From Acinetobacter dispersus (GTDB lineage Bacteria > Pseudomonadota > Gammaproteobacteria > Pseudomonadales > Moraxellaceae): a stretch of DNA of 64,000 bases. Of this stretch, positions 22,456-33,745 are shown in pieces. Location: positions 1,364,001-1,428,000 of the forward strand of contig NZ_CP041970.1 of assembly GCF_009884975.1 (NCBI RefSeq), given 5' to 3'. The first letter of the stretch is position 1, and each line of letters starts with the position of its first letter. Below the pieces are notes generated by a model that saw only the letters and a program-made list of their open reading frames with translations, ran no database searches and was not told the origin of the DNA. Made by a program: the position numbers and the translations under genes.

Positions 22456-23067
22456 TTATCTACAAACCTTCATCTGCTTGTATTGTTGCAGTTCATCTAA
22501 TGAGTTAATACTATGACAAAACAGGCCTTGCTTTTGAAATGCCACCACCTGTGCATCCAATTGTTTAAAACAATCTCGCAAACTCAGTTTATTCTCAGCA
22601 ATCGCTTGCTCCAACACAGATAAACTTTCTCGCTTAAGTAAACAAAATGGATATAAAGCTTCACCATTGATATTGACATAAGCCACTTGCGCCAACGGCT
22701 GCTTTTGCAAAGCGCGATGCAGTTTAAGCACAACCTGACTAGGAATATAAGTCACATCACAGGGAATAAATAAAGCATAGTCAGCTTGCAGATGTGACCA
22801 AGCACTCTTCATCCCCATCAACGGGCCAAGGAAACCATTTTGATCATCTGCATAGCATCGAATATCAGGTTCAATCTGTTTATAGATCGAGTTATCACGG
22901 TGGCTATTCACCCAAATGTGTTGAACCTGGGCCTTAAAACTTTCACATATTTTTGACAGCTGAATCTGGTCATCAAACTGTTGTAGCAGTTTGTTGGTCC
23001 CGTTCATACGACGCGCTTGCCCTCCCGCCAAGATCACTAGATCTGTAGCGGGATATTCTGTATTCAT
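22456..23067 (-). CDS. mobA: MobA-like molybdenum cofactor guanylyltransferase
   Basis: 203 residues with the nucleotide-binding LAGGQARRMNGTNK near residue 12, the MobA consensus LAGGxxxRMxGxxK, followed by NSHRDNSIY and a FIPCDVTYIP metal-binding Asp. MobA joins GMP to molybdopterin to make the bis-MGD cofactor that nitrate reductase needs. It overlaps the nasA stop by 4 bp at the end of the nitrate operon, which agrees with serving NasA. The 3' part was also duplicated to the left as a fragment. Confidence 0.85.
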   Translation of the reverse strand: MNTEYPATDLVILAGGQARRMNGTNKLLQQFDDQIQLSKICESFKAQVQHIWVNSHRDNSIYKQIEPDIRCYADDQNGFLGPLMGMKSAWSHLQADYALFIPCDVTYIPSQVVLKLHRALQKQPLAQVAYVNINGEALYPFCLLKRESLSVLEQAIAENKLSLRDCFKQLDAQVVAFQKQGLFCHSINSLDELQQYKQMKVCR

Positions 23068-25844
23068 GCTTCTGCCTCCAATTGACAGGTTTTAATCAGA
23101 CCACGAATCTCAGGTAAACAAGAACCACAATTGCCACCTGCTTTTAAACAAGCCGTGACTTGTTTTTCATGGGTGATATTTTGCGTTTTGATGGCTTCGA
23201 TAATTTTATTCTTACCCACTTTAAAACAACTACAAACCAGAGGTCCATCGTTATTTGCAGCAGACATTGGCATCCCTGCCAGCAAAGCTTTACGATGCAA
23301 AGCACTTAGTCGTTCACGTTTAAACAGACTCGCTACCCAATCGCGATTTGGCAATAAATCGACAGGTGCAATATATAAACTGGCAATCAGGATACCATCT
23401 TTTAAAATTACACTATGGCTGAGCTGTGATGAAATATCTTCAAGACTTAACCATTCATAGGTTTCATCGACAAAAGGCAGGAAGCTTTTCAGATTCTTTT
23501 GGGTCTCATCAATACTATGACGATCGGCAATTTCATAACGCATCGCTTTTGCGGTTTTGATCTTGGTCCACCATGCACAACTTTGTAAAGATGTTTTGAT
23601 ATGATGTTCAAAGCCTTCACGTACATAAAGCACGCCTTGCCAAGTGGTATGGAATGGCTGAATCGCAACGGGTGTATGTTTAAATTCAGGTTCGCCTGAG
23701 ATCGCATCCACCACTGGATTAACCACTTTACCAATCCGCGCATCAGAAGCGACTTGCTCAGTCCAGTGAATCGGTGCAAAGATTTGGCCACGACGCACAC
23801 CTTGTGCCAGCGTCACACGCAATATACAACGCCCCCATTGTGAGCGGACTTCCACCAAAGCTTTATCACGGATACCAAATTTTAATGCATCATTCGGATG
23901 AATCTCACAAAATGGTTCAGCACGATGCGTGGTGAGGTTTGCCGATAAACCCGTACGAGTCATGGTATGCCATTGATCACGGATACGTCCTGTATTCAAC
24001 ACCAATGGATAATCTTCAGAGATGGCATGCACTGGATCAATGGCAATGGTAGGAATCAGCTTGGCTTTTTTGTTTTTATGGCTAAAACTGCCACGATCAA
24101 ATAACCGTTCAACAGCAATACTTTGCCCTTTCTCCCACACAGGCCATTGAGTTGGGCGTAAATGGTTATATTCATCCAGACTTAAATTCATTAGCCCTTT
24201 TAAATTGAAATAACGGAAATTTTCAACATGATCACGTTGATCAATACTGGCATTTTGATAGGCCGATAAAGCCGCGTGTTCATTAAAAATATCACAGGCA
24301 TGATTAAAATCAAAACCAGTAAAGCCGAGTTTTTTTGCAACCTCTGCCACCGCCCACCAATCCGCTTTGGCTTGCTTTGGCGAATTTAAAAAGGCACGTT
24401 GCCGTGAAATACGGCGTTCAGAATTGGTGACCGTACCATCTTTCTCTCCCCAACCTAATGCAGGCAACAACACATCTGCATAGGCTGTGGTATCAGTATC
24501 CGCACAAATATCAGAAACCACCACAAATTCACATTTTTCCAAGGCGCGTTTGACTTGATCTGCATCGGGCAAACTCACTACAGGATTGGTTGCCATAATC
24601 CAGATGGCTTTGATTTTGCCGCTTTCCACCGCTTGGAATAAATCAACTGCTTTTAAACCTGCTTGCTTGGCAATCACAGGACTGTTCCAAAAGCTTTGCA
24701 CCAGATGTTGATGTGACGGATTATCTAAATCCAGATGTGCTGCCAGCATATTGGCCAATCCACCCACCTCACGACCGCCCATGGCATTGGGTTGACCCGT
24801 CATTGAAAATGGTGCTGCACCTAATTTGCCAATTTTTCCAGTGAGTAAATGGCAGTTGATAATACTATTGGCTTTATTTACACCTTGAGAGGATTGATTA
24901 ACCCCCATCGAAAACAAGGTGATTACTTTTTCTGTTTGAGCAAACTTATCAAAAAACAGTTGTAATTTTTCTGCAGAAATTCCTGTACGTTTCACCAAAG
25001 TATTAAAATCTTGCTCGCTTTCACTCGCAGCTAACAGTGCTGCTAAACCTTCGGTATAGGTCTCTACAAAATGATGGTCGATATAATCATGATGGTAAAG
25101 ATACTGAAACAGACCATTAAATAAAGCCACATCCTGACCGGGTAAGATCGGCAAATGTAAATCCGCTTGCTCGCAGGTACTGGTAAAACGAGGATCGACC
25201 ACCACTACAAATAAATCTGGATTCTTGCTCTTGGCTTGCATGATACGTTGATACAATACGGGATGACACCATGCTGTATTAGAGCCAACGAGAATCACCA
25301 TATCGGTATGTTCAAAGTCTTCATAACTGGCAGGTACGATATCTTCACCGAAGGCACGTTTATGCGCAGCAACCGCAGATGACATACATAGGCGTGAATT
25401 GGTATCAATATTGGCAGTGCCTAAATAGCCTTTTACAAACTTATTCACCACATAGTAGTCTTCAGTCAGCAACTGTCCTGAGACATAAAATGCAACGCTG
25501 TCAGCGCCATATTGATCAATACAGGCTTGAAACTGGTCTGCAATTTTCTCAATCGCCTGATCCCATGTCGTGACTTGACGATGGTTTTTACGGCCAAACA
25601 TCGGATGCAAGACTCGAGTTTCCAAGCCTAAAGTATCGGCTAAATTACTGCCTTTAATGCAGAGTCGTCCAAAGTTTGAAGGATGATCCAGATCTCCTGC
25701 AACTTTTACCGTTGTACCATGCGCTTTATGTTGGACACTAACATCAACGCCACAACCCACGCCACAATAAGGACATGTTGTTTTTGTAATGATTGTTTCT
25801 GCTTGATCGGAGCGACTGTGTTCTAAATTTTGAATACTGTTCAT
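23064..25844 (-). CDS. nasA: Assimilatory nitrate reductase catalytic subunit
   Basis: 926 residues, cytoplasmic molybdopterin enzyme reducing nitrate to nitrite. An N-terminal [4Fe-4S] motif C24-x2-C27-x3-C31 with C62 lies in TTCPYCGVGCG, followed by molybdopterin domains (CMSSAVAAHKRAFG, GSNTAWCHPV, TGQPNAMGGREVGGLA, TGRIRDQWHTMTRTG). A C-terminal BFD-type [2Fe-2S] domain has CSCFKVG and CLKAGGNCGSCLPE, as in NasA/NarB fusions. AAGGGGC precedes the ATG at 25844. Reducing power would come from the NirD-FAD fusion protein upstream in the operon. Confidence 0.93.
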   Translation of the reverse strand: MNSIQNLEHSRSDQAETIITKTTCPYCGVGCGVDVSVQHKAHGTTVKVAGDLDHPSNFGRLCIKGSNLADTLGLETRVLHPMFGRKNHRQVTTWDQAIEKIADQFQACIDQYGADSVAFYVSGQLLTEDYYVVNKFVKGYLGTANIDTNSRLCMSSAVAAHKRAFGEDIVPASYEDFEHTDMVILVGSNTAWCHPVLYQRIMQAKSKNPDLFVVVVDPRFTSTCEQADLHLPILPGQDVALFNGLFQYLYHHDYIDHHFVETYTEGLAALLAASESEQDFNTLVKRTGISAEKLQLFFDKFAQTEKVITLFSMGVNQSSQGVNKANSIINCHLLTGKIGKLGAAPFSMTGQPNAMGGREVGGLANMLAAHLDLDNPSHQHLVQSFWNSPVIAKQAGLKAVDLFQAVESGKIKAIWIMATNPVVSLPDADQVKRALEKCEFVVVSDICADTDTTAYADVLLPALGWGEKDGTVTNSERRISRQRAFLNSPKQAKADWWAVAEVAKKLGFTGFDFNHACDIFNEHAALSAYQNASIDQRDHVENFRYFNLKGLMNLSLDEYNHLRPTQWPVWEKGQSIAVERLFDRGSFSHKNKKAKLIPTIAIDPVHAISEDYPLVLNTGRIRDQWHTMTRTGLSANLTTHRAEPFCEIHPNDALKFGIRDKALVEVRSQWGRCILRVTLAQGVRRGQIFAPIHWTEQVASDARIGKVVNPVVDAISGEPEFKHTPVAIQPFHTTWQGVLYVREGFEHHIKTSLQSCAWWTKIKTAKAMRYEIADRHSIDETQKNLKSFLPFVDETYEWLSLEDISSQLSHSVILKDGILIASLYIAPVDLLPNRDWVASLFKRERLSALHRKALLAGMPMSAANNDGPLVCSCFKVGKNKIIEAIKTQNITHEKQVTACLKAGGNCGSCLPEIRGLIKTCQLEAEA

Positions 25845-25856
25845 GACTGCCCCTTT

Positions 25857-26030
25857 GAATCCCACCCAGCCTCCCTTTATCAAGGGAGGAGTAGCGCGAA
25901 TTCATATCTTAAATATAATTGAAAAACAGTCCCTCTTTCATATAGGAAGGAAGCCACGAACCATCGTCATTGCTTAAATTCGTGGCATTCCCCCGCTTTC
26001 ATAAAGAGGGGGTTAGGGGGAGATTCATCA
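25857..26030. repeat. Composite multi-hairpin intergenic repeat
   Basis: Three or four palindromes lie in series: CCTCCCTT/AAGGGAGG (25870-25877 with 25882-25889), a degenerate CCTCTTT/AGGAAGG pair near 25931-25950, GCCACGAA/TTCGTGGC (25953-25960 with 25979-25986), and CCCCCGCTTT/AAAGAGGGGG (25990-25999 with 26003-26012), followed by GTTAGGGGGAGATTC. It resembles dispersed GC-rich palindromic units seen between Acinetobacter genes. It sits between the NirD-FAD fusion and nasA, so it may affect transcript stability or the relative level of the two. Confidence 0.7.
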
Positions 26031-27647
26031 CCCTGCCTTTTTCATTGCAAAATCCTTACCAAATAACAGCTTATTTCTAAAAGTAGAAACAGGCGTTTGA
26101 TCTGCAATCAACTCGGCATACCACATCCCATCTTCCGTATCACCAAATAGAACCGCACCAATCACTTTGTCTTTCTGGATAATGATACGTTTGTAAATCT
26201 GACGTTTATCATCATTGAGAATGATGTCTTCATAATCTTCTTTTGGTTCAAAGTTCCCAGCTGAGAATACATCAACCCCACTGACTTTTAACTGTGTTGG
26301 TACGGTCGGTGATTTAAAGGTTAAGCTGCCATGTTCAGCCAAATGCGTTGCACAGATGAAGGCTTGTCCCCAAAGTGGTTCAACTAGACCAAAGGTTTGA
26401 TTACGATGTTCGATGCATTCACCAACCGCATAGATACTTGGATCAAAAGTTTGCATGGTGTCATTAACTAAAATACCTCGGTTACAACGCAGTCCAGCAC
26501 TTTGAGCTAAAGCAATATTTGGGCGAATCCCGACCGCAAAAATCACTAAATCCGCGTCCAGTACCGTTCCATCTTTAAGACGGACTTGACTGACATGCCC
26601 CTCTTCGCCAATCAACGCTTCAGTATTGGCCTCGGTAATAATATTGATCCCCTTTTGTTCGATACTATGACGCAACATGCGGCTGGCACGTCCATCCAAC
26701 TGACGCTCCATAATTCGATCCATCAGGTGCAGAACCGTGACATTCATACCACGTTGTTTCAGTCCGTAGGCCGCTTCCAAACCCAACAAACCGCCACCAA
26801 TCACCACCGCATTCTTTTTGGTTTCGCAATATTTGATCATGGTGTTTACATCATAAATATCACGGAAGCTGATCACACCTTTTAGATCTACACCTTGAAC
26901 AGGTGGAATAAATGGTGATGAGCCTGTTGCGATGATCAATCGATCATAATCAACACTTTCGCCTTTCTCGGTATGCACCACTTTACGGGTACGATCAATC
27001 TTGATCGCAGGATCATCAGCAATAAATTGAATCCCTTTATCGCGATACCACGCATGTGGATGCAACATGATGTCATCAATGGTTTTTTCACCTGAAAGTA
27101 CTGGCGACAACATGATTCGGTTGTAATTGCCCCATGGCTCCTCTCCGATTACGGTGACGTCATAACGATCTGGGGCCATATCCAGTAAGTCCTCAAGACA
27201 ACGCATCCCCGCCAGACCATTGCCAATCAGCACCAGTTTCAGCTTTTCTTGCGCAGCGCCATTGTTGGTAATATAAGTCTTTTGCGGAACAGACCCGACC
27301 CACACCCGACCATTTTCAATTTTGGTTGGAAAAACCAAGAGCTTTTGATCTTTATCTTCCAAACAACGACCCGTCGCTAAACTAAAATGCTGTTTATAAA
27401 TCGGCGATGCGATCACGCGCTCACCTTGTAAATCGCCAATGATGCCGCGACACATCACATTGGCTTGGCTGAATGGATCTTTATTACTTAAGGCATAGAT
27501 CCGCTTTTCATAACCGACACGAAACAGTGCAACGGATTGACCTTCGATCAGTGCGCCCACACCCGTATTTGGTGTGATGTCTTCCAAAGCACACACCTCG
27601 ACCCATTGATTTTCTGGCAGCATATCGATGTTCTTTAAACTGGTCAT
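26028..27647 (-). CDS. NirD-like domain fused to FAD/NAD(P) oxidoreductase
   Basis: 539 residues in two parts. Residues 1-115 resemble NirD: a Rieske-type beta fold without the four cluster ligands (WVEVCALEDITPNTGVGALIEGQSVALFRVG). Residues about 135-520 resemble the FAD-NAD(P) half of NirB/NasB, with two dinucleotide-binding motifs (LIGNGLAGMRCLE and VVIGGGLLGLEAAYGL) and a Fe-S-free C-terminus. The likely role is the NAD(P)H-dependent electron donor of assimilatory nitrate (and perhaps nitrite) reductase. Separate NirD and NirB halves are the usual form, and full NirB is the next gene upstream. Confidence 0.85.
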   Translation of the reverse strand: MTSLKNIDMLPENQWVEVCALEDITPNTGVGALIEGQSVALFRVGYEKRIYALSNKDPFSQANVMCRGIIGDLQGERVIASPIYKQHFSLATGRCLEDKDQKLLVFPTKIENGRVWVGSVPQKTYITNNGAAQEKLKLVLIGNGLAGMRCLEDLLDMAPDRYDVTVIGEEPWGNYNRIMLSPVLSGEKTIDDIMLHPHAWYRDKGIQFIADDPAIKIDRTRKVVHTEKGESVDYDRLIIATGSSPFIPPVQGVDLKGVISFRDIYDVNTMIKYCETKKNAVVIGGGLLGLEAAYGLKQRGMNVTVLHLMDRIMERQLDGRASRMLRHSIEQKGINIITEANTEALIGEEGHVSQVRLKDGTVLDADLVIFAVGIRPNIALAQSAGLRCNRGILVNDTMQTFDPSIYAVGECIEHRNQTFGLVEPLWGQAFICATHLAEHGSLTFKSPTVPTQLKVSGVDVFSAGNFEPKEDYEDIILNDDKRQIYKRIIIQKDKVIGAVLFGDTEDGMWYAELIADQTPVSTFRNKLLFGKDFAMKKAG

Positions 27648-27658
27648 TTGAGTTCTCC

Positions 27659-30205
27659 TTATGCTTCAACCATTGGGATACGATCGACTGAACGTTCAGC
27701 GTCATTCAAAGGACGAATCTGATCACGTACTTGGGTAAATTGAATATGTGGGTCAGCTTGCTCTTCCGCACGGGCATTGATATAGGTTTGGAAACGTTTA
27801 CGAATCTCAGGGTCTTCAACCGCAGTACGCCATTCATCTTGATAAGTGCCAATCACATGGCTCATACGGCTTTCAAGCTCTTCAGCTAGCCCTAGAGAAT
27901 CATCGACAATCACTGATTTGAGATAATCCAAACCACCTTCCATATTGTCACGCCATACGCTGGTACGTTGTAAACGATCTGCCGTTTGGATATAGAACAT
28001 AAAGAAACGGTCAATATAACGAATCAAGGTTTCAGTATTGAGGTCAGAAGCCAATAATTCTGCATGGCGTGGTTTCATACCGCCATTTCCACAGACATAT
28101 AAGTTCCAGCCTTTCTCAGTTGCAATTACCCCAACATCTTTACCTTGCGCTTCGGCACATTCACGGGTACAGCCCGACACCGCCATTTTCAATTTATGTG
28201 GCGAACGTAAGCCTTTATAGCGGTTCTCAAGTTCAATCGCCAAGCCAACAGAATCGTCCACTCCATAACGGCACCATGTACTACCAACACATGATTTCAC
28301 GGTACGCAAAGATTTCCCGTAAGCATGACCTGATTCAAAACCTGCTGCGTTGAGCTCTTCCCAGATAAACGGGAGTTGATGGATTTGCGCACCAAATAAG
28401 TCGACACGTTGTCCACCGGTAATTTTGGTATACAGGTTATATTTTTTGGCAATTTGACCGACAGCAATTAAGCCATCTGGTGTGACTTCACCACCTGCCA
28501 TACGCGGCACAACCGAGTAAGAACCATCTTTTTGGATATTACCTAAGTAGTAATCGTTACTGTCTTGTAGGCCTGCATGGCTAGGTTCTAGTACGAAATC
28601 ATTCCAGCAGGATGCCAAAATATTGGCCGCCATCGGCTTACAAATATCACAGCCTAGACCATGACCATGTTGGTGAATCAAATCATCAAAGGTCTTGATT
28701 TCATTGACACGAACCAAGTGATAAATTTCTTGGCGTGAGTACGGGAAGTGCTCACACACATGGTTATTGACCGTTACGCCTTGGCGTTGTAGTTCAGACT
28801 TCAACACTTGCGTGACTAAAGGTGCACAACCACCACAGGCTGTCGCCGCTTTGGTACATTTTTTCAAAGCACCGAGTGAGGTTGAACCATCACAAATTGC
28901 TTGGCAAATATCGGCTTTAGACACGTTATTACATGAACAAATGGTTGCACTATCAGGTAGTAAATCGACACCGCTGCCACCAGCTTTGGCACCTGAATCG
29001 GCAAAACCTGGCATGATCAAACTTTCAGGCGTTTCTGGTAATGCCAGACCGTTCAACATCATTTGTAGCAGGTCGTTATATTCTTTGGCATCACCGACCA
29101 AGACCGCACCGAGCAACTTGGTTTTATCTGCATCGACCACGATCTTTTTATACACAAGGCTATCTTCATCGGCATAAAAATAGCTAAGTGAGTTTGGTGT
29201 CATCCCATGCGCATCACCGACTGATGCCACATCAACGCCCATCAACTTCAACTTGGTGCTCATATCTGCACCCGCGAAACAATGGGTTTCTTCGGCTAAG
29301 ATATGTTTTGCGGCAATACGTGCCATGTCATAACCGGGCGCGACCAGACCGTAGATTTTGTTATCCCACAGCGCACATTCACCAATCGCATAGATATGTT
29401 GATCTGAGGTTTGGCAATAATCGTTGATTTTAATCCCGCCACGCTCACCCAACGCTAAACCACTCACCCGCGCTAATTCATCACGTGGACGAATCCCCGC
29501 AGAGAATAAAATGATATCTGTTTCCAGCTCGCTACCATCAGCAAACTTCATGATGTGCGTTGTGTTATCACCGGCTTCAATACATTGTGTGGCTTTTTGG
29601 GTGTGGACTTTCACCCCAAGATTTTCAATTTTACGGCGCAATACCTTGCCACCAAGATCATCAATCTGTACCGCCATCAAACGTGGTGCAAACTCCACCA
29701 CATGCGTTTCCAGATTTAAATCTCGCAATGCTTTAGCCGCTTCCAAACCTAATAAGCCGCCACCAATCACCACACCTGTTTTGGCATTTAAGCTTGCAGC
29801 ACGGATGGCATCTAAATCTTCAATGGTTCGATAGACAAAACAGTTTTCACGATCATTGCCTGAGATTGGCGGAACAAAGGCATACGACCCTGTTGCTAAG
29901 ACCAATTTGTCATAATGAATCACATCGCCAAAGTTGGTGGTCACCGTTTGCTCAGCTGCATTAATTTCTACCGCTTTGGTATTCAGTCTTAAATCAATAC
30001 CGTGCGCGTCTGCAAAATCAAAGCGAGCCAGTGATAAGTCTTTTGCTGTTTTACCAGAGAAGTATTCAGTCAAATGTACGCGGTCATAGGCAATACGTGG
30101 TTCTTCTGCAAGGATGGTAATTTCTAATTCATCATCAGCTTTCTCCAAGATGGCTTCGATGAATTTATGCCCTACCATACCGTGACCAATCATCACTAAT
30201 TTCAT
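27659..30205 (-). CDS. nirB: Nitrite reductase (NADH) large subunit
   Basis: 848 residues. An FAD/NAD(P) part (1-400) has GHGMVGHKFIE and VVIGGGLLGLEAA, then a BFD [2Fe-2S] domain (CSCNNVSKADICQ and CGGCAPLV near 420-480), and a siroheme/[4Fe-4S] sulfite/nitrite reductase half with VKSCVGSTWCRYG and SGCTRECAE holding the four cluster cysteines. It reduces nitrite to ammonia in the cytoplasm with six electrons. GAGGAG precedes the ATG at 30205. Its own gene for a separate NirD is absent because that domain is fused in the next gene. Confidence 0.95.
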   Translation of the reverse strand: MKLVMIGHGMVGHKFIEAILEKADDELEITILAEEPRIAYDRVHLTEYFSGKTAKDLSLARFDFADAHGIDLRLNTKAVEINAAEQTVTTNFGDVIHYDKLVLATGSYAFVPPISGNDRENCFVYRTIEDLDAIRAASLNAKTGVVIGGGLLGLEAAKALRDLNLETHVVEFAPRLMAVQIDDLGGKVLRRKIENLGVKVHTQKATQCIEAGDNTTHIMKFADGSELETDIILFSAGIRPRDELARVSGLALGERGGIKINDYCQTSDQHIYAIGECALWDNKIYGLVAPGYDMARIAAKHILAEETHCFAGADMSTKLKLMGVDVASVGDAHGMTPNSLSYFYADEDSLVYKKIVVDADKTKLLGAVLVGDAKEYNDLLQMMLNGLALPETPESLIMPGFADSGAKAGGSGVDLLPDSATICSCNNVSKADICQAICDGSTSLGALKKCTKAATACGGCAPLVTQVLKSELQRQGVTVNNHVCEHFPYSRQEIYHLVRVNEIKTFDDLIHQHGHGLGCDICKPMAANILASCWNDFVLEPSHAGLQDSNDYYLGNIQKDGSYSVVPRMAGGEVTPDGLIAVGQIAKKYNLYTKITGGQRVDLFGAQIHQLPFIWEELNAAGFESGHAYGKSLRTVKSCVGSTWCRYGVDDSVGLAIELENRYKGLRSPHKLKMAVSGCTRECAEAQGKDVGVIATEKGWNLYVCGNGGMKPRHAELLASDLNTETLIRYIDRFFMFYIQTADRLQRTSVWRDNMEGGLDYLKSVIVDDSLGLAEELESRMSHVIGTYQDEWRTAVEDPEIRKRFQTYINARAEEQADPHIQFTQVRDQIRPLNDAERSVDRIPMVEA

Positions 30206-30233
30206 TGTGTTTCTCCTCAAATCGAATCTTTGA

Positions 30234-31586
30234 TTAAGCTGCGCTACTTTGTTCTGAGCTACGTTCCAACATGGCTTGTTCGAACAGCTGTTGTTCTTTT
30301 TCTTTATGCTCCACCGAGAATCGGATAAGCATTACTGAGCTTGCAGCAATCACTACCAAGCCACCTAAAACCATTAAACAAGTTTGAAAATCGACCATTC
30401 CTTTCAGCAAGAATCCTGCTGCGACTGCCCCGACATTGCCACCTGCACCAATAATGCCTGCCACACCACCGAGTGCTTCACGATCAATAAATGGAACCAA
30501 TGCATAGGTCGCACCACATGCCATATGGGTAAACAGTGCGAAGATGGTCATACTGAGGATTGCAAGAACGGCACTATTCATATGCGCGAATAACATCAGG
30601 AACAGTCCTTCACCCAAGATCAACAGAAACAAGATTTTGGTACGACCATCCAAACCTTTTTTCAGCGCCACTTTGTCTGAAACAATCCCGCCAAGCGCAC
30701 GGGCAAACAGTGCCAGCAAACCAAAAACCCCTGCTGCCAGTCCTGCTTCTTTTAAACCAAAGTTAAAGTGCTCGACGTAATACATCGCAATGATGTTGTG
30801 CATGAAGATTTCAATGCCGAAACATGCCGCATAAGAGCAGAATAGAATCCAGACCCGATAGTTACGCGCTGCGTGCATTAGGATGGCTAAGCCACCTTTT
30901 TTGTCGCTTCCAACTACAACACCTTGGGCACGCAGTTCTTTAAAATCACCTTGCGGGCAGTCTTGAGTCAGCTTCCAATAAAGCACACCCACGATCAGCA
31001 TCATCACACCAGGTACAAGCAATGCAATTCTCCACCCCATGGCTTGTTCAACACCGAACATCACCAAGGCAGACAACAGTAAAGGCATCAAGGCTTGTGT
31101 TGCACCACCACCTGCATTCCCCCAACCCGCTGAAGCGGCATTGGCGGTGCCTACAACATTTGGCGCAAACATAATGCTGGTATGGTATTGCGTGATCACA
31201 AAGCTGGCGCCAATTGCACCTATCAATAAACGGAAAAATAGGAAGGATTCATAACTATTGGCTGCAGCAACACCAAATACAGGAATACTGCCCAGCAATA
31301 ACAATGCAGTATACGTTTTACGTGGGCCATATTTATCACACAGTGGGCCAACGATTAATCGAACCACAATCGTGATTGCAACAGCAGCAATATTGATATT
31401 GGCGATCTGATCTTTGGTGAGATGGAACTCGCCTGCGATCACTGGCATTAACGGTGCACAAGCAAACCAAGCAAAGAAACAAACGAAGAAAGCAAGCCAA
31501 CTCATGTGGAATGCCCGCATCGCTGGTGCAGAAAAGTTGAATAACTTAATTGATGTGGCTTTTTTCGCCGATAAATCTAAAGACAT
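30234..31586 (-). CDS. Nitrate/nitrite MFS transporter (NarK/NasA type)
   Basis: 450 residues with about 12 membrane segments. Nitrate-signature glycine-rich helices are visible: GWGNAGGGATQALMPLL in the first half and AGIIGAGGNVGAVAAG in the second, which line the nitrate path of NNP carriers. The start at 31586 (MSLDLSAKK) has GGGAG seven bases upstream, so the earlier ATGs in the leader are not used. It is the first gene of the nitrate operon, directly behind the NasT-responsive leader. Confidence 0.93.
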   Translation of the reverse strand: MSLDLSAKKATSIKLFNFSAPAMRAFHMSWLAFFVCFFAWFACAPLMPVIAGEFHLTKDQIANINIAAVAITIVVRLIVGPLCDKYGPRKTYTALLLLGSIPVFGVAAANSYESFLFFRLLIGAIGASFVITQYHTSIMFAPNVVGTANAASAGWGNAGGGATQALMPLLLSALVMFGVEQAMGWRIALLVPGVMMLIVGVLYWKLTQDCPQGDFKELRAQGVVVGSDKKGGLAILMHAARNYRVWILFCSYAACFGIEIFMHNIIAMYYVEHFNFGLKEAGLAAGVFGLLALFARALGGIVSDKVALKKGLDGRTKILFLLILGEGLFLMLFAHMNSAVLAILSMTIFALFTHMACGATYALVPFIDREALGGVAGIIGAGGNVGAVAAGFLLKGMVDFQTCLMVLGGLVVIAASSVMLIRFSVEHKEKEQQLFEQAMLERSSEQSSAA

Positions 31587-31622
31587 TGCCATCTCCCATA
31601 CTGAACGTATCATGTGTTGTTC

Positions 31623-31651
31623 ATACAGCACGCTGTATCAACAAACCGATC
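31623..31651 (-). repeat. Second leader hairpin before narK
   Basis: ATACAG-CGTG-CTGTAT with flanking TGTT/AACA pairing gives an 11-bp stem with one mismatch, 40 to 60 bases before the narK start. It has no following T run. It could adjust translation or mRNA stability. Confidence 0.45.
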
Positions 31652-31702
31652 AGATCGGACATCGTTGGCCGTCTTACAATTTTGCAAGTCATCTTTGACT
31701 CA
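31639..31702 (-). promoter_or_regulatory. NasT-type ANTAR leader with overlapping terminator
   Basis: Read on the minus strand. Hairpin P1 (stem 31702-31697 with 31690-31685) has the hexaloop AAAGAT. Hairpin P2 (CGGCC 31671-31667 with GTCCG 31660-31656, one C-U mismatch) has the hexaloop AACGAT. Both loops keep A1 and G4, the bases that ANTAR antiterminators recognise. A shorter hairpin CCGAT-CTG-ATCGG (31658-31646) followed by TTTGTT uses the same CCG as P2, so P2 and this terminator exclude each other. The divergent nasT gene supplies the partner. The terminator T run is weak, which lowers certainty on that part. Confidence 0.7.
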
Positions 31703-31711
31703 AGGAATAGT

Positions 31712-31729
31712 TAGCAAATGTTATGCCAA
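31712..31729 (-). promoter_or_regulatory. Sigma-54 promoter of the nitrate operon
   Basis: The minus strand reads TTGGCATAACATTTGCTA. This fits the TGGCAC-N5-TTGC consensus, with GG and GC exactly 12 bases apart as required at -24 and -12. Transcription would start about base 31702, the first base of the P1 hairpin. NtrC control is therefore expected for the nitrate genes; no NtrC site was traced. Confidence 0.8.
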
Positions 31730-32119
31730 GTTCTAATCACAATCACACCAACAAAACATTAGTTATTGTTTTATATTGATTTTATTAACTTATTCTTTAC
31801 TTTAAATAAATACCACTTCATTTGAAGAGAGCAAGTTCAGTACAACGACCTGTTTTAAAGCATAATTCGTACTGCTTCAAAACAACTCTTTTTATGCACT
31901 TAAAAAGTGCAGTTTTTATTCTAGAGGATATAATTCAAATTTTTCATTTCTTCTACTTGGTCACAGCGATACAATAAAGCGCATAAACAATACGCCCCAT
32001 GGAGCGATTGCACCGAATAAGAAATCAAAATAGCTTCACTGGCACTATTTTTGCTTCAAAAACAATACGCACAGCACTTTAATCTCTGTGCATAACCCCA
32101 CCGTTTGACCTATATACTT

Positions 32120-32710
32120 ATGCCGAAACTCAAGATCGCACTTATTGATGACGACCAGGCTCGGGCTGAATACATAAAAACCTGTTTGATTGAACATGAC
32201 TTTGATGTAGTGGCTTGTTTTACCCTCGATCATCTCAATATTTTTAAACTCGAACATCTTCAAGCCGATGTCATTCTGCTTGATATGGATCATCCACATC
32301 GCGATGTGATTGAAAGTTGTGTCAGTAATTTTGATCTGCCTACGGTCTTATTTACCAAGAACACCGATAAAGACACCATCAAACAAGCCATCGATGCAGG
32401 GATTACCGCCTATATCGTTGATGGTATCGACCCAAGCCGCTTACACACAATTTTAGATATTTCGATTGAGCAGTATAAAAAGCATAAAAAACTGGAATGT
32501 GACCTGAAAGATGCCAAGACAAAGCTTGCAGATCGTAAAGATGTCGAAAAAGCCAAAGTGTTGCTGATGCAACTGCATGGCTTAACTGAAGACACTGCGT
32601 TTCAATTACTCAGAAAAAATGCCATGAGCCATCGCATGACCATTGGAGAAATGGCACGGCGCTTACTGGATGCCCAACAACTTTTAAATAATCAACTAAA
32701 GGATGAATAG
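32120..32710 (+). CDS. nasT: ANTAR transcription antiterminator, NasT type
   Basis: 196 residues. An N-terminal receiver-like domain (LKIALIDDDQARAEYI, with LLDMDHPHRD) is followed by a coiled linker (about 110-135) and an ANTAR domain at the C-terminus with AKVLLMQLHGLTEDTAFQLLRKNAMSHRMTIGEMARRLL. NasT binds paired-hexaloop leader RNA and lets polymerase pass the terminator when nitrate frees it from NasS. It is divergent from the operon that carries such a leader. The ATG at 32120 is chosen; the upstream TTG has no RBS either. Confidence 0.9.
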   Translation: MPKLKIALIDDDQARAEYIKTCLIEHDFDVVACFTLDHLNIFKLEHLQADVILLDMDHPHRDVIESCVSNFDLPTVLFTKNTDKDTIKQAIDAGITAYIVDGIDPSRLHTILDISIEQYKKHKKLECDLKDAKTKLADRKDVEKAKVLLMQLHGLTEDTAFQLLRKNAMSHRMTIGEMARRLLDAQQLLNNQLKDE

Positions 32711-33745
32711 ATGAGCCATTTAGTCGAATTAGCAAAAGTAGAAAAAACCGAATTACAACTGGGCTATATTCCCTTACTTGATTGTGTCGCATTACTCTGG
32801 GCAAAACAGCGTGGTTTTTTTGAAGAAGTCGGTTTAAATGTCAATTTAGTCAAGGAAGCTTCTTGGGCCAGTTTACGTGATCGTTTAGCTTTTGGCTCAC
32901 TCGATGCTGCACATTGCCTGTCTGCTATGCTGCCAGCAGCAGCGGCCGGCACAGATCAAATTGGCATTCCACTACAAACCCCTCTCGTGCTGAGTGAAAA
33001 TCGAGCCTTTATTAGCTTAAGCCAAAAGCTCTGTTATGCGCTGAATATTCAAAAACAAGATACTGCAGAAAGTTCAGCCAAGAAACTGACGAATTATATC
33101 CAGCAAGATCAAAACATCTCTTTGGCGCATGTGTTTCAACACTCAATTCATCACTATTGCTTAAGAGAATGGCTTGCTTTGGCCGACCCTCAACTAGCGC
33201 AATCCATTCAAATGAAAACCCTGCCACCTCCCTATATGGTTGAAGCGATCAGTAATCATTTAATAGATGGGTTTTGTGTCGGAGAACCTTGGAATACTCA
33301 AGCTGAGTTACAAGGTCTAAGCCAAATTGTCTGTTCAAGTCAGCACATTATCCCGAATGTTGCCGACAAAGTCTTAGCGGTCACGCAAGAATGGGCGCAA
33401 CAACATCCACACAGCTTGATTGCCTTAACCAGTGCCATTCTCAAAGCGCAACAAGAATTACGTCAACTCGAAGATTTTGCACCTGTATGGCAACTTCTGA
33501 TTGAATTTGATGTGATTCAGTTCCATTGCTCGCCAGACATTCATGTTGAAAAATACTTTACCATCCAGAATATCATTCGTAATTTTGTACAGAACAATGC
33601 TGAACCGAAAGCCCAAGATTTTGAATGGCTATTTCAACAAATGCATAAATGGAATGCTGTAGAACTTGAACGAGACACTTATATGACTCAAGCACAGAAT
33701 TGCCTACTGCTTGAAACCTATAAAGCTGCTGCGAATCCCACATAA
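32711..33745 (+). CDS. nasS: Nitrate sensor of the NrtA/CmpA substrate-binding type, NasS
   Basis: 344 residues resembling nitrate/bicarbonate-binding proteins (LQLGYIPLLDCVALLWAKQRGFFEEVGLNVNLVKEASWASLRDRLAFGSLDAAHCL) but with no signal peptide, so it is cytoplasmic. AAAGGATG precedes the ATG, which begins one base after the nasT stop. In NasST systems it holds NasT inactive until it binds nitrate or nitrite. The nasT-nasS order, the divergent operon and its leader all agree. Confidence 0.92.
   Translation: MSHLVELAKVEKTELQLGYIPLLDCVALLWAKQRGFFEEVGLNVNLVKEASWASLRDRLAFGSLDAAHCLSAMLPAAAAGTDQIGIPLQTPLVLSENRAFISLSQKLCYALNIQKQDTAESSAKKLTNYIQQDQNISLAHVFQHSIHHYCLREWLALADPQLAQSIQMKTLPPPYMVEAISNHLIDGFCVGEPWNTQAELQGLSQIVCSSQHIIPNVADKVLAVTQEWAQQHPHSLIALTSAILKAQQELRQLEDFAPVWQLLIEFDVIQFHCSPDIHVEKYFTIQNIIRNFVQNNAEPKAQDFEWLFQQMHKWNAVELERDTYMTQAQNCLLLETYKAAANPT

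Follow-up and report, generated by a model that had tools for sequence, protein, structure and literature searches.

The narK gene of Acinetobacter dispersus, coding for a nitrate/nitrite transporter, is preceded by an RNA leader with two hairpins, P1 and P2, which was analyzed here within a window of 64,000 nucleotides (nt; assembly GCF_009884975.1, contig NZ_CP041970.1, positions 1,364,001 to 1,428,000, the window being this whole stretch). According to the calculated folds, P2 competes with a conserved structure that lies over the ribosome-binding site and start codon of narK. This structure was absent from the initial annotation of the DNA, which had proposed a terminator. The leader probably responds to the regulator NasT and controls the start of translation, rather than acting as an intrinsic-terminator attenuator.

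Both hairpins (Table 1) were found where the initial annotation had placed them, with the loops AAAGAT and AACGAT. In the case of P2, hairpin and loop could be confirmed, but the stem is not clean, as its second pair is a C-U mismatch. For comparison, the window was combined with 80 named genome loci and 40 loci of lower NasT identity, with overlap of species between the sets. The 80 loci are those kept of 88 for the window NasT protein and belong to Acinetobacter/Moraxellaceae, with up to 99% identity. Of these 121 loci, 114 match a search pattern for promoter, P1 and P2; they yield the 94 distinct leaders to which the counts below refer. The leader of the A. baylyi type strain is L079. Conservation of both loops in related genomes, on which the initial annotation had made its proposal depend, was thereby found. 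Of the seven loci that miss the pattern, L054, L065 and L111 lie at contig ends, while no leader was seen next to nasT in L109, L110, L132 and L134. For L132 and L134, the genome contains a leader match at another place.

The loop bases A1 and G4, claimed for both hexaloops, occur in all 94 P2 loops. P1 exhibits G4 throughout, A1 in 87 leaders and G1 in seven; the search pattern had itself fixed G4 for P1 and P2 and restricted the first P1 loop base to A or G. With two A1/G4 hexaloop hairpins the leader has the features of a target RNA of ANTAR proteins of the NasT type. In the P1 and P2 structure 25 cells are changed on both sides compared to a shuffled mean of 10.1, all 25 of them in P1, and the 152-nt region folds with z = -3.0 (1 of 200 shuffles equally good). 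An Rfam search of the window gave no match at gathering score; a sub-threshold rliB match on the opposite strand was regarded as chance.

The P1 loop GAAGAC, with G1, was observed in L056-L063 and L085 (A. pittii, lactucae, seifertii, nosocomialis, calcoaceticus and one further species). Loop A1 is described in excerpts of the literature as important for ANTAR binding, and the seven leaders with G1 provide a natural test of this rule. The second pair of P2 is pyrimidine-pyrimidine in all 94 leaders (C-U in 85, U-C in 8, C-C in 1). It survives the double change from C-U to U-C, perhaps since both bases are needed for other pairs when the leader is OFF. In L104 (A. calcoaceticus strain JUb89) a long insert separates P1 and P2.

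Predicted occlusion and opening of the narK start

The free leader RNA of the window is predicted to adopt a minimum-energy fold of -45.3 kcal/mol in which three contacts close the start region. Segment 31682-31673 of the linker that joins P1 to P2 is paired with narK codons 2-5 (31582-31573), the 5' arm of P2 (31672-31667) with U and G of the start codon, the next base and 31588-31590, and UCC of the 3' arm (31659-31657) with 31594-31596 of the Shine-Dalgarno (SD) sequence. An inner helix, CTGATCG/CGTTCAG, encloses a variable hairpin. In the free RNA of the 94 leaders, a pairing probability above 0.5 was obtained for the P2 3' arm with the SD region (-20 to -4) in 84, for the P2 5' arm with start-proximal bases in 74, for the linker with the first codons in 73 and for the inner helix in 92, the P2 hairpin itself reaching this value in none. 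Simulated nascent chains of the window leader form P2 at 52-58 nt, retain it with 0.26-0.57 at 64-82 nt and regain it at 88-106 nt; at 112 nt, after emergence of the SD bases, it is gone. Since P2 is formed during parts of transcription, NasT could capture it then.

The energy required to open the start region from -15 to +13 was calculated for the free RNA and with P1 and P2 imposed. The median cost falls from 14.0 to 7.8 kcal/mol; opening becomes cheaper in all 94 leaders, and by more than 3 kcal/mol in 79. For the window leader, where folding with and without P2 had been proposed as a check in the initial annotation, imposing both hairpins lowers the cost from 15.0 to 6.1 kcal/mol. In comparison, 47 mechanically chosen open reading frame (ORF) starts in the window have a median of 8.3 kcal/mol, and the single one that reaches 15.0 may be narK with an upstream ATG. 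Almost the entire effect is obtained with P2 imposed alone (median drop 5.48 vs 5.53 kcal/mol) and none with P1 alone. Raw duplex energies and mean unpaired probabilities, which were tried first, were less decisive than the opening energies.

In 32 of the 94 leaders the linker and the middle of the leader were shuffled while P1, P2 and the start region were kept fixed. The mean drop amounts to 5.4 kcal/mol compared to 0.5 kcal/mol after shuffling, and in 28 of the 32 at most 2 of 30 shuffles gave a drop as large. For the window leader the values are 8.9 and 0.9 kcal/mol, with none of 30 shuffles as large. The drop was also calculated, without shuffles, for ten of 13 terminator-type leaders from other genera (see below), with start codons picked automatically and two reading frames leaving the locus. 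Nine of the ten gave a result, with a drop of -1.3 to 0.2 kcal/mol in eight and 3.9 in one.

In a fixed register, 88.2% of the cells of the occluding structure pair, compared to 28-44% when it is slid. Covariation in this register appears modest, and changes between clades are the better evidence. In L106, L130, L131 and L148 both linker and codon 3 are altered. In L066 and L075 GGCC is changed to GGTC along with GACC before the start, the contact probability in L066 being only 0.23. Most members of L136-L145 carry AACAACGGCC facing GGTCAGTTGTT. When linkers and start regions were exchanged across 15 hand-made groups (49 of the 94 leaders), the matched combination gave -144.4 and the permutations a mean of -125.2 (standard deviation 7.2), with 105 of 20,000 permutations as low. 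In groups D, E and F each linker binds its own start best; the leader of group F precedes a short ORF and nirB. In the inner helix of two second leaders, L214 and L191, an A-U pair is swapped for U-A and U-G.

The clade of L136-L145 and L215 is peculiar in that the leader is followed by a short ORF of poor conservation and then by nirB, not narK. In one genome with such a nirB-type leader (G292), narK with a leader of its own lies about 15 kb away.

Proposed switch and competing explanations

Under nitrogen limitation, NtrC and sigma-54 polymerase would start transcription at about 31702, which would make P1 the 5' end of the RNA. Without NasT, the RNA would refold as soon as the SD region is made: UCC of the P2 3' arm would lie on the SD sequence, the 5' arm on the start codon and preceding bases and the linker on codons 2-5, the CTGATCG/CGTTCAG helix would close the middle, and narK would stay untranslated. 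With nitrate or nitrite present, NasS would free NasT, which would bind to both hexaloops and hold P2. As the arms of P2 pair mutually, SD sequence and start codon would be freed together. Lost translation may also reduce the operon RNA via Rho.

Translation is well known to be coupled to Rho, and a mechanism in which occlusion works chiefly via transcription, with Rho cutting the untranslated nascent narK RNA and NasT being an antiterminator without intrinsic terminator, would be supported by the identical structural evidence. We nevertheless regard it as rather unlikely. The paired elements lie on the SD sequence and the start codon, suggesting initiation as the first controlled step.

In the initial annotation, NasT-stabilized P2 was assumed to block a terminator consisting of the compact hairpin CCGAT-CTG-ATCGG and TTTGTT. 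The hairpin is indeed present and mutually exclusive with P2 in simulated nascent chains, where, lengthened by contacts between the P2 loop and UUGUUG, it reaches a probability of up to 0.70 at 64-70 nt. It is also among three terminator-like sites that a simple scan found in the region, compared to 0.5 expected, and NasT-type leaders elsewhere use overlapping terminators. A loose perfect-stem criterion for terminators applies to 32 of the 94 leaders, which likewise speaks for termination; 16 of these owe it to the compact hairpin, and several others to P1 itself or to stems over the start codon. However, the hairpin is weak, with five pairs and -3.3 kcal/mol (scored on the identical hairpin in nine relatives), and its T tract is broken and made of bases that also pair. 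CCGATCTGATCGG occurs in only 16 of the 94 distinct leaders, and the remaining ones retain P1 and P2 without it. Relief of such a terminator by NasT could therefore not be upheld, and we consider it improbable.

The search for other terminators leads to a similar picture. Hairpins before 6 T in 8 bases were found in 19 of the 94 leaders, the strongest with -10.0 kcal/mol; with 5 T in 8, 12 leaders reach -8 kcal/mol (strongest -13.4, in L082). The best hairpin of the window leader by the latter measure has -8.5 kcal/mol and a stem that crosses the start codon. In 90 of the 94, the sequence from P2 to the start codon contains no run of more than 4 T. In contrast, leaders from other genera of the same order show hairpins of -18.9 to -34.7 kcal/mol leading into a T tract in 12 of 13 scored; the terminator of the 13th, L167, is only partly scored (-4.8). 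Read by eye, the 5' strand of these terminators overlaps a hexaloop hairpin. The 13 controls originate from a scan that required a sigma-54 motif together with two hexaloops, in which 17 of 38 loci gave rows and NasT genomes without these elements are not counted. L185 (genome of L158), L165, L180 (chance-like) and L152 were left out; L152 exhibits a T5 run after a possible hairpin. A perfect-stem scan was rejected in favor of the energy-based one, as it finds just 4 of the 13 controls, their terminators having bulges and long loops. The P2-overlapping intrinsic terminator with T tract that distinguishes NasR/NasT antitermination leaders was not found in the Acinetobacter leader.

Several further results weigh against control at the translation start. 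The opening energies are equilibrium predictions, and the opening cost itself is exceptional in only 17 of the 32 shuffle-tested leaders. Mean unpaired probabilities move less, increasing by more than 0.2 for the AUG in 27 and for the SD sequence in 20 of the 94. L103, L114, L125 and L149-L151 show little or no pairing of the linker, although SD and inner-helix pairing stays. When the linker alone is shuffled, 50 of the 94 leaders stand out and 44 are unremarkable; the window leader is matched by 27 of 200 shuffles. Fixed-register two-sided pairs number 8 compared to 5.0 after shuffling (9 of 500 as many), with 6-10 in slid versions. RNAalifold, applied to a 93-leader alignment that excludes L104 owing to its long insertion, recovered P1 and P2 and not the long-range structure. 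In the exchange of linkers, the start of group E is paired as strongly or more by linkers of A, I_083 and I_127, and the starts of D and F by that of L104. L212, L216, L218 and L219 contain a U-U mismatch at the inner-helix pair mentioned above.

The second leaders, which precede a narK paralogue (narK2), are a weaker case and could point to another mode. Among 18 distinct narK2 leaders, five show a drop above 3 kcal/mol, and in 10 at most 2 of 30 shuffles equal the drop. L191, the second leader of the A. dispersus genome (G000:C1:349511-349568), shows a drop of 0.8 kcal/mol. As an independent confirmation the narK2 leaders serve only partly. That start-region pairing is a mere by-product of A+T-rich sequence and conserved coding, with the leader acting otherwise through P1 and P2 alone, would agree with the 44 unexceptional linker shuffles, the helix missed by consensus folding and the weak switching of most narK2 leaders, but is very unlikely in view of the switch that exceeds shuffles in 28 of 32 leaders, its absence from eight of nine terminator-type leaders and some clades that retain their own complement to differing start sequences.

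Promoter, locus and distribution

The predicted sigma-54 promoter TGGCAT-N5-TTGC with -24/-12 spacing, as initially described, is present on the minus strand and conserved in relatives. Its core reads TGGCA in 92 and TGGTA in 2 of the 94 leaders, TGG and GC having belonged to the search pattern. RpoN and NtrC are encoded in the genome, in which one ANTAR match, one RpoN match and one NtrC over its family cut-off were found. A GG-N10-GC element in conserved context, together with rpoN and an activator gene, is thus consistent with a sigma-54 promoter. From the predicted start to the narK ATG there are 116 nt. P1 follows the -12 C at a distance of 14 in 78 of the 94 leaders; the short spacing, which the initial annotation had singled out, is a conserved feature and not an oddity. 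Relaxed NtrC-like palindromes (at least 8 of 10 bases) occur in 68 of the 94 leaders compared to 41 of 940 mononucleotide shuffles, and begin 147-183 nt 5' of the promoter in 56 of 60 listed cases; the strict palindrome was found at only 6 of 114 loci. Judged from these sequences, we infer that sigma-54 and NtrC are used at the narK leader.

The narK protein scores 301.5 bits against the NarK family TIGR00886, slightly below the cut-off of 311.7. Further in-frame ATGs lie 5' of its start at 31592 and 31613; relatives favor 31586. The genes nasT and nasS adjoin narK divergently (ANTAR 62.6 bits, NMT1_2 191.5 bits). AvnR, the ANTAR regulator of A. baumannii ATCC 17978, may be the NasT described here.

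Table 1. Positions of leader elements and neighboring genes in the window.
Feature	Position	Strand	Remarks
NtrC-like palindrome TGCAC-N7-GTGCA	31895..31911	-	begins 183 nt 5' of promoter
Sigma-54 promoter TGGCAT-N5-TTGC (putative)	31714..31728	-	12 bases from first G of GG to first G of GC
Transcription start (predicted)	31702..31702	-	from -12 position
P1 hairpin, hexaloop AAAGAT	31686..31701	-	presumed NasT recognition element
Linker P1-P2	31673..31685	-	31682-31673 pairs with narK codons 2-5 in free RNA
P2 hairpin, hexaloop AACGAT	31656..31672	-	loop 31666-31661; pyrimidine-pyrimidine mismatch
Compact hairpin CCGAT-CTG-ATCGG (CCGATCTGATCGG)	31646..31658	-	5 pairs, then TTTGTTGATA
CTGATCG, inner helix 5' strand	31647..31653	-	conserved
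Variable hairpin enclosed by inner helix	31614..31646	-	core 31638-31623
CGTTCAG, inner helix 3' strand	31601..31607	-	pairs with CTGATCG
Shine-Dalgarno GGGAG	31593..31597	-	31596-31594 face UCC of P2 3' arm
narK, nitrate/nitrite transporter	30234..31586	-	heads gene run; ATG 31586-31584
nirB, nitrite reductase large subunit	27659..30220	-	3' of narK
NirD-like Rieske + reductase fusion protein	26028..27647	-	same run as narK
Nitrate-reductase-like protein (nasA)	23064..25883	-	name from sequence, without family search
nasT, receiver + ANTAR domain	32105..32710	+	start TTG 32105 or later ATG
nasS, NMT1-like	32711..33745	+	presumed nitrate/nitrite-binding partner of NasT

To follow the leader through the genus, a covariance model of P1-P2 was built from 41 leaders. 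Of 175 Acinetobacter genomes, 144 contain a leader according to this model. Among 119 genomes searched, all 100 with NasT (match at most 2.1e-77) have a leader and 1 of 19 without NasT does; some of the leaders counted had trained the model, and for 8 of the 18 genomes lacking both, absence of the leader was deduced from a list of the 144 matches in which they do not appear. The RNA thus co-occurs with a genome-encoded ANTAR protein. In the single genome with a leader and without NasT (G093, leader L209) the P2 pairing is lost and the narK frame, by eye, stops after about 40 codons; decayed leader and interrupted narK are probably what remained once the regulator had been lost.

Under stricter filters, the model matched only the genome of the window in a sample of the order (1 of 145), and in the family sample a single weak match was obtained outside the genus (G263, E 0.0056). 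In that search, 10 of the 20 Acinetobacter genomes having a match showed two. In a genus of the family (g90) whose NasT is about 50% identical, no leader was found near nasT (ORFs listed at 1 of 4 loci); its one genome-wide match was weak and judged by eye to be chance. Plasmid records gave no leader match. Two records labelled 'Acinetobacter phage MD-2021a' (CAKLQF020000006.1 and CAKLQH020000012.1) contain a 71.8%-identical match over 64% of a 181-base leader query and are possibly bacterial contigs.

Relation to known ANTAR-controlled leaders

ANTAR regulators are known chiefly as antiterminators; translational repression is described in actinobacteria. The combination of a sigma-54 promoter with a dual-hexaloop leader of the NasT type is known elsewhere and well supported here, and the new aspect would be a start-site lock that replaces the terminator. 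If true, ANTAR-driven release of a hidden start site would be present across Acinetobacter, including the A. baumannii group, and would demonstrate how a single module for protein-RNA recognition can be shifted from the control of transcription to that of translation. The chances seem about even that NasT of Acinetobacter turned from antiterminator into translational activator, the ancestral terminator being replaced by a lock of the P2 arms (anti-SD and anti-start), with a linker that co-evolves with the first codons of whatever gene follows and no termination step left. Natural variants, namely G1 loops, clades with altered pairing and the NasT-less relic, are available as controls.

The nas leaders of Klebsiella and Azotobacter have sigma-54/NtrC promoters. 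Similar to the NasR/NasT leaders of Klebsiella nasF, Azotobacter nasAB, Paracoccus and Bradyrhizobium, the Acinetobacter leader is associated with an ANTAR protein and nitrate or denitrification genes, contains two A1/G4 hexaloop hairpins (as in Klebsiella) and has a P2 that excludes the OFF structure. It differs in the absence of a strong intrinsic terminator and in an OFF structure that covers ribosome-binding site and start codon. Cited passages describe NasT/NasR leaders as acting by antitermination (PMC5424462, PMC3795266, PMC6759348, PMC8164766, PMC8934654, PMC12316311, PMC6363711, PMC10269061, PMC3369931). According to further excerpts, Paracoccus NasT binds its nasA leader RNA, and for P. 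denitrificans nitrate control was proposed at translation too, those excerpts giving no RNA mechanism. Among the matches listed in open-licence literature, neither a NasT leader of Acinetobacter nor natural ANTAR-activated translation was found.

As far as the cited sections go, the EutV leaders of Enterococcus share the dual hexaloop, the importance of loop bases 1 and 4 and the competition with an OFF structure, which is terminator-based there and not in Acinetobacter (Ramesh 2012, PMC3369931). The same sections contain the suggestion that ANTAR RNA matches without terminators, some near or overlapping the ribosome-binding site, may control translation initiation. Actinobacterial ANTAR RNAs, in the portions cited, often overlap the ribosome-binding site and likewise control translation, and binding in mycobacteria represses (PMC8164766). 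These RNAs hold the ribosome-binding site inside and the activated protein represses (PMC8164766), whereas the hairpins of Acinetobacter compete with occlusion, so that NasT binding should activate. Here SD sequence and start codon lie 59-72 nt 3' of P2, which sets the leader apart from the actinobacterial type.

The blue-light receptor described by Weber in 2019 reportedly combines an ANTAR domain with RNA binding and translational regulation, using one aptamer hairpin at the ribosome-binding site of engineered reporters; the link between an ANTAR-type protein and translation is similar, and a natural competing lock is said to be absent there. Translational riboswitches with anti-SD/anti-anti-SD logic also alternate between two folds, one of which hides the SD sequence. 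In the narK leader, by comparison, the sensor would be a protein-bound dual hairpin, and the coding sequence itself would form one arm of the lock.

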